A program made the position numbers and the translations under genes. From contig NZ_JAMQOT010000007.1 in the NCBI RefSeq assembly GCF_029502005.1, positions 124,001-188,000 on the forward strand: a DNA stretch of 64,000 bases, in the 5' to 3' direction. This DNA is from Natrinema salsiterrestre. Its GTDB lineage: Archaea; Halobacteriota; Halobacteria; Halobacteriales; Natrialbaceae. The notes beneath the pieces were generated by a model. The model did not search any database, was not told the DNA's origin, and saw only the letters and a program-made list of their open reading frames with translations. Positions 41,951 to 48,372 of this stretch are shown piece after piece (position 1 is the first letter of the stretch; every line of letters starts with the position of its first letter).

Positions 41951-42111
41951 CGTCCAGCCGGCCGTCGGTCGACGTCCGTCCCCGCCGGCCTCTCGAGCGC
42001 GGACCGCTCGAGACGGCAGCCCGAGACGGGACGACCGGCTGTGCGGACTCGAGGACCGAAGGTATTCGGCGAACGCCTTTCACGGTATCCCGTGTCACTA
42101 CCTACCGAACA

Positions 42112-42597
42112 ATGGCTTCCGCAGAATCGTCACCCGAATCCGACGAAACCGCCACGCTCCCCGATTCGCTCAGTTCGGCAGCGGGGTGGTACCTTCTCAC
42201 CGTCTATCGACTCTCCTCACGAGACGATCGGCGAGTTCGAACCGGCGAACTCGCCGAGCGACTGGCCATCAGTCCCGCGAGCGTGACGGAGATGGCGGGA
42301 AAGCTAGCCGACGACTCGTTCCTCGAGTACGAACCGTATGCAGGCGTCGCGGTGACGCCTCGGGGAGAGCGAACCGCCGAATCGCTCGCGTGGCGACAGT
42401 GCGTTGTTGCGTCCTTTTTCGATCGCATTTTGTCGTACGATATCGACGGCGACACCGCGTATCGAATCGGGTACACGGTTCCCGAAGGCGGTATCCGTCG
42501 ACTCCGTGAGCGGGTCGATAATCCGTGTCTCGATACCTGTCGACGCGTCGGACGGGAGGACGACGACTGTCTCGTTGCAGCGCGTGCCGAAGGCTAA
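42112..42597 (+). CDS. DtxR-type metal-responsive regulator
   Basis: The 161-residue protein has a winged helix-turn-helix with TGELAERLAISPASVTEMAGKLADDSFLEYEPYAGVAVTPRG, the DtxR/MntR pattern, then a dimerisation helix region with WRQCVVASFFDR, and a cysteine-bearing tail with CLDTC and DDDC near residues 139-152. The metal sites of the canonical DtxR are only partly evident. It might sense Fe or Mn and control transport or oxidative response. The frame stays open upstream to 41518 only as a shadow of the synthetase gene. Confidence 0.75.
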   Translation: MASAESSPESDETATLPDSLSSAAGWYLLTVYRLSSRDDRRVRTGELAERLAISPASVTEMAGKLADDSFLEYEPYAGVAVTPRGERTAESLAWRQCVVASFFDRILSYDIDGDTAYRIGYTVPEGGIRRLRERVDNPCLDTCRRVGREDDDCLVAARAEG

Positions 42598-42716
42598 TTC
42601 GGACGATTCCGGCCTACCGACTGGCCGCGAAATGGAGGGAGAAGGCCCGCGCTTCAGTACGGAGTGTTACCCTCTCGGTTCCGGAAGAGAAATTCCGGAC
42701 CGTCCATCTGTTTCGG

Positions 42717-43001
42717 TTACTCGGATCGGACTGAACCCGCTTCGGCTGTCTCACTCGGCGGCCAGGCTGCCCACGCCAGTACGGCGATGACGATCCCCAA
42801 TCCGAGCACGATCGTCTCGAAGACGGAGAGCGTGATACCGAACCACGAGAGGGCCGTCCGTAACTCGACGATGATCGGGACGAGGACGGCCACGAGGACG
42901 AGGAGTCCACCACTGGATACCGCCGAATAGGTTCGGTGTACCGGACTGCGGCCTTCGACGGCTATCGGCCGAACGCTCGACGCTCGAGCGATCGACGGCA
43001 C
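42717..43001 (-). CDS. Putative small two-helix membrane protein
   Basis: The 94-residue reading frame has a polar N-terminus and two hydrophobic segments (near residues 31-46 and 58-80), then an acidic end. Haloarchaeal genes of this type are often missed, but no family is recognised and the N-terminal part may not be coding. It lies between the DtxR-type and nitric oxide reductase genes on the opposite strand. Confidence 0.4.
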   Translation of the reverse strand: MPSIARASSVRPIAVEGRSPVHRTYSAVSSGGLLVLVAVLVPIIVELRTALSWFGITLSVFETIVLGLGIVIAVLAWAAWPPSETAEAGSVRSE

Positions 43002-43078
43002 CCCCAGCGATCACTCCTGGTGACTCTCGGTTCGCGTCCGTCTATTCGCCGACGGCAGTTACTGCAGCCCTCGCCGGA

Positions 43079-43273
43079 CTATCCGGAACTCGTGAGGGCC
43101 CACCCCAAACTGTGGGCCGTCTTTCCGGAAAAATAGCCGACGAGGGCCAGTACGCTGGCAGCTTCGCCCCCTCCGACGGCGAATCCCATCACTCCACCGA
43201 TCAGAGCGAGGCAGACGGCTGCGTACTGATACAGCAACTGAAACCCGCGCGAATCGCGCCCCATCGCGGTCAT
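43079..43273 (-). CDS. Putative small two-helix membrane protein
   Basis: The 64-residue frame starts MTAMGRDSRGFQ and has hydrophobic segments near residues 16-33 and 38-48. A second possible start is MGRDS, three codons in. No family is recognised; the hydrophobic pattern is the only support. Confidence 0.4.
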   Translation of the reverse strand: MTAMGRDSRGFQLLYQYAAVCLALIGGVMGFAVGGGEAASVLALVGYFSGKTAHSLGWALTSSG

Positions 43274-43415
43274 AGACGACCCAGTGATCGACGATCAGTC
43301 CATCGGCTCGAGCGAACCGGGGTCTCGTAGCCGCTTTCCTGTGTGGATGCGAGCGAGGACGGCCGATCGCGGCAGTTCATAGCGATGAACACGGTCACAG
43401 ACGCAACTCAGTTTT

Positions 43416-43431
43416 CCCGAACCCGTTCGGG
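43416..43431. promoter_or_regulatory. 16-bp inverted repeat upstream of the nitric oxide reductase gene
   Basis: CCCGAAC, two bases, then GTTCGGG forms a perfect inverted repeat 117 bases before the ATG. Its half-sites resemble the CGAAC/GTTCG halves reported for the haloarchaeal anaerobic regulator NarO, but the reported spacer is longer, as I recall it, so the match is partial. Confidence 0.35.
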
Positions 43432-43547
43432 CCGTTCGCCCGGTATCCGTCGCGTCGCTCCGGTGGAACGTTGCTTGCAGCTGACGCGTGTACCATTATC
43501 CGCCGGCTTCGAGCCTACTAGGATACCGAACGTGGCAATAACTGATC

Positions 43548-46500
43548 ATGGGTCTCAGGAACCTTCTGTCAGCGAATGACTCGGCCAGCGGCACCGGTCG
43601 ACAGCGCCCGTCCGGGTACCTGACGGATCGGGTCGAGGCGGGGACGGAACTCGTCACCGACTTCTCGAAGCGGACCCGTCGGGCTGCCGGCGAGCGGGTC
43701 CTCGGCGCCATCGATCGGGGCGTCGACGAACTCCGGACGCGGTCCGCGGACCGACCCGGGGACGAGTTCCGCGATCGACTCCTCGAGCGGGCCGCCGACG
43801 AACTGTGCGAACGACTGGCGGGGCGTCCGCTCGAGGAACTCCGCGAGCGATCCGGACTCGATTCGAGTATCGACGATCCCTTCGATCGCCGGCTCGAGCG
43901 GTTCCTGCGCCGATACGGGCTGGACGAGACGCGACTCGACGACGACGCGCTGCGGGCGATCCGGGACCAGCTGGCCGCGGAAACGGACGTGGAAATAGAG
44001 GAGGTGCTCGAGGCGCTCGGTGCCGACGATTCGAGAGAGCTCTCGGACCCATCGAAATCAGACGGGAGGTCGTACTCGGACGCGTGGTCGCGATTCTGCG
44101 GGGAACTGGACGTCGAGTGCGATCGATCCCTCGAGTGCGTTCTCGCCGACGTTCTCCGGCGGGACGCCGTCCTCGTCGGTCACGCCCTCGAGCGAACCCT
44201 GACCGAGGAACTACCGACGATCGCCGGTGACCGGTCGGCCGATGCGACCGGGATCGAGGAGCGCCCCCGACGAGGACGTTCCCGGTCGATCGACGCTGCG
44301 GTTCCGACGGACGCGAGGTCCGGCCGACCGGCAGCAGCGCTGGCGCTCGCGGCACTAATCCTCTCGGACTCCGTTGGTGGCGATCGGTCCCTCGCCCGTC
44401 TCCTCCCGGTCGTGGCGTCGACCCTGACCGACGCGGAGAGCGGGTTCCTCCCGCTCGAGCGGGACGTCCTCGAATTGCTCTCGAGTTTGCCGCTCGAGAC
44501 CGGGGGCGACGGGCTCGATCTCGCAGCGCTTCGGTCCGGATCGACCGGGTCGCTGGCGCTGGTCGCGCTCTTCGTCGCCAACCTCGTCGCGATGGGGCTG
44601 GGGGCGTGGGTATCCCACAGGCGGGCACCGCCGATTCCCGACGAGATCCGCGGACCGGACGGGGACCCCGTCGTCACCGACGAGCAGGTCCAACTCGGCA
44701 AGAAGGTGTTTCAGGCGAACGGGCTCATGAACTTCGGCTCGGTCCTGGGCAACGGCTCGTACTTCGGGGTCGACCTCACCGCGGACGCCCTGGAACTGAA
44801 AGCCGAGTTCATGCGCGAGTACTACGCTCGCGAGCGAGGCGGGGAGTCGTTCGAGGCGCTCCCGGACGACGAGCGGGCAGTCGTCGCCGAACGCGTCGAA
44901 CGGGAACTCGACGCGGACGCGCCCGACGGGTCGATCGCCCGGTACTCGGCGGCGGAAGTCTACGCTCACGAACGCGTTCGGGAGCGGTACGTCGACCGGT
45001 ATCACGACGGGTCGCCCGAACGCGGAATTCCGTCGGAGTTCGTCGACTCGGCCGACCACGCCGAGCGACTCGCCGACTTCGCGTGCTGGACGGCGTGGAT
45101 GGCCCACACCAACCGGCCCGGCTCGGACCACTCCTACACGAACGACTGGCCGTACGTGCCCGCGACCGGGAACCGGCCCACCGGTCAGGTCCTGGTCTGG
45201 AGCACGGTCAGCGTCGTCCTGCTCATCGCCGGCGGCGGGTTCGGCGTCTGGGCGTACCACGCGTTCGACTTCGCGGAACCGACGACCGAACTCGTCGACG
45301 TGCCCTCTCCCGACGCCGTCTCGGTCACGCCGACCCAGCACGCCGCGGCGTGGTACGTCCCCGTCGCCGGCGCGCTGTTCGTCGCCCAGACGCTCGTCGG
45401 CGCGCTGCTCGCGCACTACTACGTCGAACGCACCGGCTTCTATCGAATCGGGGAGGCGCTCGGGATCGACATCGTCTCGCTGCTCCCGTTTTCGGTCGGC
45501 CGCGCCTGGCACGTCAACCTCGGAATCCTCTGGATCACGACGCTGTGGCTCGGCGGCGGCCTCTTCCTTCCGGGACTGTTCAGCGACCGCGATCCGCCCC
45601 GGCAGGCCGCTGGCGCGACCGCACTGCTCGGCGCGCTCGTCCTCGCGACGGTCGGCGCGTTCGCGGGCGTCTGGCTCGGCACCCGCGGGAAATTCGGCTC
45701 GCCCGAGGACGGCGAACGCTGGTGGTGGCTCGGCTCCGAGGGCCTCGAGTACCTCGAGGTCGGCCGGGTCTGGAAGCTCGCGTTGCTCGCCGCTTTCGCC
45801 GGCTGGACGGGATTAGTGCTGCGCGGCGTCCGCCAGCTGGACGAACCGGCGACCGGGCTGGGTCACTTCATGACGTACGCGGGGGGCTCGATCGCCCTCA
45901 TGTTCGCCGCGAGCATGCTCTACACGCCGGAGACGAACATGGCGGTCACGGAGTTCTGGCGCTGGTGGGTCGTCCACATGTGGGTCGAGGGCGTCTTCGA
46001 GTTCTTCGTCACCGCCGTGATCTCCGCCGCGCTGGTCTCGATGGACCTCATCGACAAAGGCGACGCCGAAAAGGCGATCCTCTTCGAAGTGTTCGCAATC
46101 ATGGCGGCGGGCATCGTCGGCGTCTCCCACCATTACTGGTGGGTCGGGCTCCCCGACTTCTGGGTCCCACTCGGGACGACGTTCTCGACGCTCGAGTTCG
46201 TCCCGCTCGTGTTCGTGCTCTACCGGAGCCTCGGCGAGTATCGATCCCTGAAGGCCCAGGGCGAATCCTTCCCGTACACGCTGCCGCTCCTGTTCATCCT
46301 CGGGAGCAGCGTGTGGAACTTCGTCGGCGGCGGCGTCCTCGGCTTCTTCATCAACCTCCCGGTGATCAACTACTACGAACACGGCACCTACCTGACCGTC
46401 GCCCACGCGCACACGTCGCTGTTCGGCGCGTTCGGACTGCTCGCACTCGGTCTCGGCACGTACATCCTGCGCGTCGTCGCGCCCGAAGCCGCGTGGGACC

Positions 46501-46781
46501 CGACCTGGTTCCGCGGGGCGTTCTGGCTGACGAACGTCGGTCTCGTGATCATGTCCGTCGCGTCGCTGCTCCCCCTCGGATTCGTCCAGCTCCGGACCGC
46601 CTATCGGGACGGCTACGCCGCCGCGCGCAGTCTCGAGTTCTACGAACAGGAGCACGTCCAGACGCTGCTGTGGGCGCGAACGCTCGGCGACGCGCCGATG
46701 ATCCTCGGCGCGCTCGCCTTTACCGCCGGGGCGATCCGACACCTCCGTGCCGCCCGGCGGCACTCGGCTACGGATACCTGA
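43548..46781 (+). CDS. norB: Quinol-dependent nitric oxide reductase (qNOR) with a long N-terminal extension
   Basis: From about residue 332 the 1,077-residue protein is a normal qNOR of some 745 residues: a first helix, the soluble domain containing GKKVFQANGLMNFGSVLGNGSYFG, then about twelve helices with heme and metal histidines in GRAWHVNLGILW, VVHMWVEGVFEFF, GVSHHYWWVG and VAHAHTSLFGAFG. It would reduce NO to N2O using quinol. Relatives start near the first helix; here about 330 extra residues precede it. They are helix-rich, charged, with one weak hydrophobic stretch near 265-280, and no domain I recognise. The extension has haloarchaeal codon use and is in frame from the ATG; a downstream start is not excluded. 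Confidence 0.88.
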   Translation: MGLRNLLSANDSASGTGRQRPSGYLTDRVEAGTELVTDFSKRTRRAAGERVLGAIDRGVDELRTRSADRPGDEFRDRLLERAADELCERLAGRPLEELRERSGLDSSIDDPFDRRLERFLRRYGLDETRLDDDALRAIRDQLAAETDVEIEEVLEALGADDSRELSDPSKSDGRSYSDAWSRFCGELDVECDRSLECVLADVLRRDAVLVGHALERTLTEELPTIAGDRSADATGIEERPRRGRSRSIDAAVPTDARSGRPAAALALAALILSDSVGGDRSLARLLPVVASTLTDAESGFLPLERDVLELLSSLPLETGGDGLDLAALRSGSTGSLALVALFVANLVAMGLGAWVSHRRAPPIPDEIRGPDGDPVVTDEQVQLGKKVFQANGLMNFGSVLGNGSYFGVDLTADALELKAEFMREYYARERGGESFEALPDDERAVVAERVERELDADAPDGSIARYSAAEVYAHERVRERYVDRYHDGSPERGIPSEFVDSADHAERLADFACWTAWMAHTNRPGSDHSYTNDWPYVPATGNRPTGQVLVWSTVSVVLLIAGGGFGVWAYHAFDFAEPTTELVDVPSPDAVSVTPTQHAAAWYVPVAGALFVAQTLVGALLAHYYVERTGFYRIGEALGIDIVSLLPFSVGRAWHVNLGILWITTLWLGGGLFLPGLFSDRDPPRQAAGATALLGALVLATVGAFAGVWLGTRGKFGSPEDGERWWWLGSEGLEYLEVGRVWKLALLAAFAGWTGLVLRGVRQLDEPATGLGHFMTYAGGSIALMFAASMLYTPETNMAVTEFWRWWVVHMWVEGVFEFFVTAVISAALVSMDLIDKGDAEKAILFEVFAIMAAGIVGVSHHYWWVGLPDFWVPLGTTFSTLEFVPLVFVLYRSLGEYRSLKAQGESFPYTLPLLFILGSSVWNFVGGGVLGFFINLPVINYYEHGTYLTVAHAHTSLFGAFGLLALGLGTYILRVVAPEAAWDPTWFRGAFWLTNVGLVIMSVASLLPLGFVQLRTAYRDGYAAARSLEFYEQEHVQTLLWARTLGDAPMILGALAFTAGAIRHLRAARRHSATDT

Positions 46782-46968: not shown

Positions 46969-48372
46969 GTGACGGGATCTTGCGTCGGCTTTCACTCATT
47001 GACCACCGAGGTCACCGATCACCGCCCGACGGTCGAGGGTACCGTTCCGGACTGGCTCTCCGGGACGCTGATTCGCAACGGGCCGGCCCGTTTCGAGGTC
47101 GGCGACCGCCGCGTCAACCACTGGTTCGACGGGCTCGCGATGCTCCGCCGCTACGCCTTCGACGACGGCCGGCTCCGCTATTCGAACCGGTTCCTCCGTA
47201 GCGACGCCTACGAGGATGCGATGAACGGCCGGCTGACCGGCCAGTTCGGTACTGACACGCGCGGGTGGCGGCGCCTCCTCGAGACGGTGACCGCGCTGGG
47301 GCTGCCGGACCCGACCGACAACGCGAACGTCCACGTCGCCCGCGTCGACGGCGAGTACGTCGCCCTCACCGAGGCACCACGTCGGGTCGCCTTCGATCCC
47401 GAGACGCTCGAGACGCGCGGGCGGTTTCGGTTCCGCGACGACCTGCCCGAGCACATCGCGGCCGCCCATCTCGTCGACGACCCCCACCGCGACGAACTGG
47501 TCGGATTCACCACGCAGTTCGGGCGGACGCCGCAGTATCACCTCTACCGTCTCCCACGGGACAGTCGCACCCGCGAACTCGTCGCGTCCGTCGACGCAGC
47601 GGGGCCGGCCTACATCCACGACTGCAGCGTCACCACCGATCACGTCATCATCGTGGAGTCGCCGCTCGTACTTTCAGTGCTTCGGGCGCTCAACCCGTTT
47701 TCCGAGGGGGTGACCGACATGCTCGACTGGCAGCCGGACCGCGAGACGCGCGTGCTCGTGATCGACCGCGACACCGGCGACATCGCGGCTGACCCGACGC
47801 TCGAGCCGGCCTTTACCTTCCACCACGTCAACGCCTACGTCGACGGCGAGACCGTCGTTCTCGACCTCGTGGCGTTCCCGACCGGCGACATCGTCGATTC
47901 AATGTCGCTGGCCGAACTCGAGGGCGAGGGGTTTCCGGCGGTGTCCGACGCCCGCCTGATGCGGTACCGCATCGATCCCGACGCGAACGCGGTCCGCCGG
48001 CGGCGACTCTACGATGGCGGAATGGAGATGCCGCGCGTCGCCCGCTCAGCCGTCGGCCGGCACCACCGGTACGCCTACGGCCAGGCGACCCACCGAGAGG
48101 GGGCGAACGGACTCGTCAAAGTGGACTGCGAGACGGGTACCGCCAGGGAATGGTGGGAAGAGTCGGTCTACCTCGAGGAACCGATCCCCGTCCGGCATCC
48201 CGATGCCGAGGCCGAAGACGAGGGGGTCGTCCTCGCGACGGCGCTGGACGTCGACCGCGAGCGGACGATGCTTCTGGTCTTCGACGCGGCGACGCTCGAC
48301 GTCCGAGCGCGGGCCGATCTCCCGCACGCGGAACCGTTCGGTTTCCACGGCCGGTTCTTCCGGGACGTGTAG
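46969..48372 (+). CDS. Carotenoid cleavage oxygenase family protein
   Basis: The 467-residue protein has a beta-propeller layout and the four widely spaced histidines that hold the catalytic iron in this family: in IAAAHLVDD, in YIHDCSV, in FTFHHVNAY and in GFHGRFF near the end. The N-terminal segment PDWLSGTLIRNGPARFEVGD is characteristic. It would cleave carotenoids or apocarotenoids oxidatively, producing retinal or smaller products. The GTG at 46969 gives a sensible length. It follows the qNOR gene on the same strand by about 190 bases, with no sign of coupling. Confidence 0.88.
   Translation: MTGSCVGFHSLTTEVTDHRPTVEGTVPDWLSGTLIRNGPARFEVGDRRVNHWFDGLAMLRRYAFDDGRLRYSNRFLRSDAYEDAMNGRLTGQFGTDTRGWRRLLETVTALGLPDPTDNANVHVARVDGEYVALTEAPRRVAFDPETLETRGRFRFRDDLPEHIAAAHLVDDPHRDELVGFTTQFGRTPQYHLYRLPRDSRTRELVASVDAAGPAYIHDCSVTTDHVIIVESPLVLSVLRALNPFSEGVTDMLDWQPDRETRVLVIDRDTGDIAADPTLEPAFTFHHVNAYVDGETVVLDLVAFPTGDIVDSMSLAELEGEGFPAVSDARLMRYRIDPDANAVRRRRLYDGGMEMPRVARSAVGRHHRYAYGQATHREGANGLVKVDCETGTAREWWEESVYLEEPIPVRHPDAEAEDEGVVLATALDVDRERTMLLVFDAATLDVRARADLPHAEPFGFHGRFFRDV

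Follow-up and report, generated by a model that had tools for sequence, protein, structure and literature searches.

Papers on haloarchaeal denitrification treat nitric oxide reductase (NOR) as one type, NorZ/qNOR (PMC8400030, PMC8301774). Solved qNORs and the short haloarchaeal NorZ proteins start around 10–25 residues before their first membrane helix (about 10 in the short haloarchaeal ones), whereas 334 residues precede that helix in the product of a gene that we analyzed in a 64,000-nucleotide stretch of the Natrinema salsiterrestre genome (the window). In its catalytic and cytochrome c-like part, its metal- and quinol-site residues and its fold, this long NOR is like the qNOR/NorZ of Geobacillus stearothermophilus (3ayf). 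Solved qNORs aligned to residues 335 to ~1070 (3ayf, E = 1.8e-158), which leaves ~334 residues extra at the N terminus (Table 1). The frame of 1,077 residues described in the first-pass annotation, which put the start of the qNOR near residue 332, was thus recovered, with the boundary at ~335 according to 3ayf. Its statement that known qNORs begin close to the first membrane helix was also borne out, the extension being absent from solved qNORs and from short haloarchaeal NORs.

A long NOR with an intact qNOR core

Membership of the qNORs was indicated by a single chain, read in one frame, that holds both a COX1-type catalytic domain (PF00115) and a NorB cytochrome c-like domain (PF22085). Residues H810, E814, H861, H862, E883, H953 and H955 match gsNOR positions that supply haem b, haem b3 and FeB ligands, and these His/Glu ligands were invariant or nearly so in 34 alignment rows. 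In a residue map, the pair H623/E627, which we take to be the quinol-site His/Glu pair, matches gsNOR chain positions 328 and 332. The full-length model has the qNOR fold (Foldseek TM-score 0.86 to 3ayf, E = 1.3e-38). NO dismutase (Nod), which has substitutions at quinol-site and catalytic residues, was considered and ruled out because the residues found here are those of qNOR. With its core intact, the product is predicted to be a working qNOR that carries out quinol-driven NO reduction, a prediction that forms part of the joint account graded below. The same genome (G000, 4.79 Mb), which has Natrinema ejinorense and N. gelatinilyticum among its genus-mates, also carries a short NorZ (G000:C26:84198-86375) of the same enzyme type, with ~55% core identity, no extension and a place in a separate tree group, as well as two NirK matches above the curated cut-off.

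Table 1. Features of the long NOR locus, in window coordinates
Feature	Position	Strand	Evidence
Conserved promoter element TGACGCGTGTACCATTAT, 66 bp before ATG	43482..43499	+	Footprint in 7 relatives
Gene for the long quinol-type NOR (1,077 aa), ATG start	43548..46781	+	Frame, domain matches, 3ayf alignment, fold
N-terminal extension, residues 1–334	43548..44549	+	3ayf alignment, homologues, frame tests
Segment A, putatively transposase-derived, residues 1–50, same start Met as IS701 transposase	43548..43697	+	HHalign
Helical insert (predicted), residues 51–105, length differs among genera	43698..43862	+	Alignments, predicted helices
Segment B, putatively transposase-derived, residues 106–141, helical hairpin	43863..43970	+	HHalign, profile searches, pN/pS
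Remaining extension, residues 142–334, helices and linkers	43971..44549	+	No transposase or library match
In-frame GTG, codon 289, proposed alternative start	44412..44414	+	Not conserved
First transmembrane helix of qNOR, ~residues 335–360	44550..44627	+	3ayf alignment; helix 333–359 in model
NorB cytochrome c-like domain, residues 364–536	44637..45155	+	PF22085, E = 1.2e-48
Haem-copper oxidase-type catalytic domain (COX1), residues 599–1048	45342..46691	+	PF00115, E = 2.9e-52, invariant columns, residue map

Coding signal and start of the extension

The extension occurs in frame in about 36 haloarchaeal sequences. It is present in 25 of the 125 genomes of the family (Natrialbaceae), nearly always fused in-frame to NOR, and a profile search showed that further families of the order carry it as well. 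Homologues share 26–56% identity with the window in the extension and 67–92% in the core. This frame was free of stops in all of 29 homologues, compared with a mean of 2.0–5.0 stops in the other five frames, each of which was stop-free in at most 4 of the 29. Gap lengths were divisible by 3 in 10 of the 11 pairs of close sequences, and third codon positions are the most variable within the extension. Pooled pN/pS was 0.36 for residues 106–146, 0.48–0.69 for the rest of the extension and 0.13–0.20 for the enzyme, and the extension changes 3–4 times faster than the enzyme. The stop-free frame, the in-phase indels and the pN/pS values indicate that the extension is coding but weakly constrained, and not just a frame left open by chance in GC-rich DNA. 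An antisense open frame of 324 aa that spans it (window 43654–44628, minus strand) is a GC artefact, because antisense frames are seldom stop-free across the same homologues. Codon use had earlier been likened to that of the neighbouring genes; this holds roughly, although third-position GC is lower in the extension (0.79) than in those neighbours (0.87–0.90) or the core (0.91).

The ATG is found at the same place in most homologues and, in many, lies few codons past an in-frame stop. Upstream of it, seven relatives share a conserved footprint from ~-75 to -40, with the element TGACGCGTGTACCATTAT; the pattern TGACRCGTNNACNNTTAY gave seven matches in 12 whole genomes, every one before a long NOR, and none in the control. 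At roughly the corresponding upstream position, Natronococcus has an AT-rich box of another kind. The idea that the element is a remnant of an IS end was rejected, as the similarity did not rise above shuffles for any row. An exact palindrome, CGAACCCGTTCG (CGAA-N4-TTCG), is located 130 bp upstream (window 43418–43429); as a candidate conserved regulatory site it has exact copies in just 4 of the 36 regions upstream of long NORs (0.13 expected). A search for a conserved internal start among the homologues found none. Together, the conserved ATG, the promoter element and the lack of a conserved internal start argue strongly against the GTG at 44412, which the first-pass annotation had proposed as an alternative start (near 44411), and translation of the extension is very likely, as that annotation had considered probable.

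The genes around the NOR were not conserved beyond close relatives or across genera, and a conserved operon partner was rejected on these grounds. An RPE65-family carotenoid oxygenase gene (PF03055, window 46969–48372) lies directly 3' of the NOR. Upstream is a gene for a DtxR-type iron-dependent repressor (PF01325, window 42112–42594), which, among the loci compared, is shared at this place only with Natrinema ejinorense. In Natronococcus (L117/L118 flanks), the long NOR is found near a ScdA_N/hemerythrin di-iron repair protein and a TorD/NarJ-like chaperone (Nitrate_red_del), neighbours that fit NO stress or denitrification.

Similarity to IS701-family transposases

We built a profile from 19 extensions and used it to search 391 genomes of the class. 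Apart from long NORs, it gave weak matches of 31–40 residues in transposases (E about 3e-4 per genome). The whole-genome matches consisted of long NORs or their remnants (the G012 match looks like a NOR-extension remnant), IS701 transposases, one probable antisense artefact (the weak G372 match) and nothing else. The matched transposase is of the IS701 family (NF033540, E = 4.8e-72, model positions 10–361; PF13546 = DDE_5), and the region matched is the N-terminal part that precedes the DDE domain; because the match covers NF033540 model positions 10–361, this N-terminal domain belongs to the IS701 family. HHalign comparison of 36 extensions with 25 transposase N-termini gave a probability of 96.63% (E = 5.2e-10) over 77 columns, colinear from Met1 of both, with a transposase profile of low diversity (Neff 1.8), while 40 column-shuffled profiles and one reversed profile reached at most 0.25%. 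The probability was 93.6% with a separate alignment set and 96.5% without the two most transposase-like (basal) rows, and just 72% with the window's close relatives alone. In the reciprocal direction, a transposase HMM matched the basal extension L109 at E = 2.8e-7 over nearly its whole length (positions 2–87), and many others of the 36 extensions scored well, against E = 0.63 at best among about 1,800 decoys. Run over 7,735 ORFs, the same HMM had long NORs as all of its top 17 matches, and over whole genomes the transposase profile retrieved transposases and NOR extensions, then noise. On these profile and HHalign tests and their nulls, homology of residues 1–50 and 106–141 to the N-terminal, pre-catalytic domain of IS701 transposases is well supported.

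Residues 106–141 (segment B) are the best conserved block of the extension, with the hairpin pattern DRxLExFLRRYxLDExRLDDxTLxAIR, and residues 51–105 are an insert missing from both the transposase and the basal NORs. A repetition of the hairpin along the extension was rejected, the best extra match (9.2 bits) being barely above shuffles (6.8). A DDE catalytic domain was sought in residues 146–334 and not found (HHalign against full transposases, 0.36%; no Pfam match), and residues 142–334 matched neither transposases nor any library. Single extensions searched against Pfam and NCBIfam, and the extension profile searched against PDB sequences, yielded no domain. Likewise, no relatives came out of a pattern scan of genome contigs based on the window's own sequence alone, whereas alignment-based searching recovered them. 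The first-pass annotation had recognized no domain in the extension and had advised a search of residues 1–330 against archaeal proteins and structures; the former led to the IS701 transposases and the latter to no match, so that the description stands for residues 142–334 and gives way, for the first part, to a probable transposase N-terminal domain.

History, possible role and competing explanations

In a maximum-likelihood tree of 61 cores (38 long NORs, 22 short), the 38 long NORs grouped together (support 100/100) as a single clade on a long branch of 0.92, apart from the short haloarchaeal NORs. L108 and L109, whose extensions are the most transposase-like or the most compact, branch first among them, and the tree fits one fusion. 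The direction would have been from transposase to NOR, because the domain is part of the IS701 model and the NOR extension is limited to one clade. Long NORs thus represent a second, deeply separate NOR clade with an extension of 250–350 residues, which provides the sole NO reductase in several organisms; within the part of the haloarchaeal NOR literature that we covered, we found no mention of it.

Several long NORs have been broken or lost. In one genome (G069), a 2.1 kb deletion has taken the promoter region and ~residues 1–176, leaving the core intact; this NOR (L070), with a core 97% identical to ours, is a natural truncation, in which the lost stretch corresponds to window 41975–44076 and takes in the regulator and about half of the extension as well. 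G024 has a frameshift inside the extension and an intact core, the long NOR of G025 (L093) has decayed, and G080 (L091) and G012 (L207) retain remnants only. L133 (Haloarcula mannanilytica), considered as a further broken long NOR, is a short NOR. By hand tally, each genome with a broken or lost long NOR also has a short NOR, and the remnants point to repeated loss of the long NOR where a short one exists. Since the G069 deletion and the G024 frameshift leave the core intact, the extension may be dispensable, at least alongside a second NOR. The long NOR was whole in 16 of 16 genomes where it is the sole NOR and in 13 of 18 with a second NOR (p about 0.03), a tally made by hand that concerns the whole gene and not the extension alone, and in which, outside the Natrialbaceae, two candidates were scored per genome, so that 'sole' is uncertain there.

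The extension is charged and is predicted to be helical, in keeping with its earlier description as charged and helix-rich. Fold models of it were poor (mean pLDDT 58.5, with confidence over 80 just around residues 111–146 and 181–200), and a Foldseek search of the model against the PDB gave no match. In solved qNORs, the residues that precede the first membrane helix are in the cytoplasm and the cytochrome c-like domain lies outside, and the extension would, on that topology, be on the cytoplasmic side. It has no CxxC, no conserved Cys/His set, no cofactor motif and no known domain, which makes a role as electron carrier unlikely. The proposal of a fused partner coupling NO reduction to something else found little to sustain it, with no cofactor motif, no partner found and a neighbourhood not conserved across genera. 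In the NORs, most of the basic residues seen in the transposase domain (HHAK, NKT) have been replaced, which speaks against retained DNA binding, and this activity has probably been lost.

Our best explanation is that one ancient capture of a transposase domain produced a qNOR with a cytoplasmic, likely structural appendage, and we give this account as a whole a probability of about 0.7. A transposase gene of the IS701 family would have contributed its 5' portion, from its own start codon on, which would have joined a haloarchaeal qNOR gene once, and the fused frame would later have grown by the helical insert and the sequence of residues 142–334. The product would be a qNOR with a translated, mostly helical appendage before the first membrane helix. 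Counting against this account, a third to half of the extension is matchless; the account is built on sequences and models, with translation, location and function predicted. An unlikely alternative is that no transposase was captured, and that an older helical domain, for DNA binding or as a scaffold, spread independently and is common to the NOR extension and the N-terminal part of IS701 transposases, as the limited reach of the similarity (just about 77 columns), the shortness of the hairpin and the low Neff of the transposase profile would allow. However, whole-genome searches met the domain in IS701 transposases and long NORs only, the match begins at the first Met of both proteins, and the general IS701 model includes the domain, whereas the NOR extension is confined to one haloarchaeal clade. 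It is still harder to believe that translation begins downstream, either near residue 289 or at the Met that is conserved in the first membrane helix, with the extension as 5' untranslated sequence. Weak constraint (pN/pS up to 0.69) and the intact cores behind the broken G069 and G024 frames would suit such a start, but the uninterrupted frame in every homologue, the in-phase indels, the blocks conserved at the protein level, the conserved upstream ATG, often just past an in-frame stop and preceded by a unique promoter element, and the lack of any conserved internal start all oppose it.

If a fusion occurred, the appendage would most likely be structural, serving assembly, stability, dimer formation or docking of a partner on the cytoplasmic face, with no direct part in electron transfer, a role that we propose tentatively. 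Somewhat less probable, and in our view doubtful, is that the extension persists as a leftover under little constraint, translated but passive and without function, as its fast evolution, length changes, low-complexity linkers and breakages might suggest; against this, segment B is comparatively constrained (pN/pS 0.36), Y123, L125 and L130 are invariant over the clade, the extension has been kept throughout a clade spanning several families, and long NORs are more often whole where they are the sole NOR, as far as the whole gene goes. Retained binding of DNA or some other nucleic acid by the transposase-derived domain, which would make a membrane-anchored NO reductase with a cytoplasmic nucleic-acid-binding arm, is very improbable given the replaced basic residues; if true, such an arm would tie the chromosome or its regulation to NO respiration.

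The probable transposase origin of the first part of the extension is a new result, and would represent an archaeal case in which a core membrane enzyme of respiration captured a transposase domain. To our knowledge, such capture is known mainly for eukaryotic regulators. It raises the testable question of whether a domain whose former task was the handling of transposon ends has come to affect NO reduction, complex assembly or gene expression. With IS701-family transposases, the extension has in common the start Met, the first helices and the hairpin RALxxFLxxYxxDExxLxxERLexLq, and it differs from them in having no DDE domain, in the insert between its two blocks and in the replacement of most of HHAK and NKT. 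In primate SETMAR, a host enzyme was joined to a transposase part through a nearby insertion (PMC6326780). The long NOR resembles SETMAR as a host enzyme joined to part of a transposase; however, SETMAR is a eukaryotic, nuclear protein that has kept the DNA-binding transposase, whereas the long NOR has the N-terminal domain alone, on an archaeal membrane respiratory enzyme.
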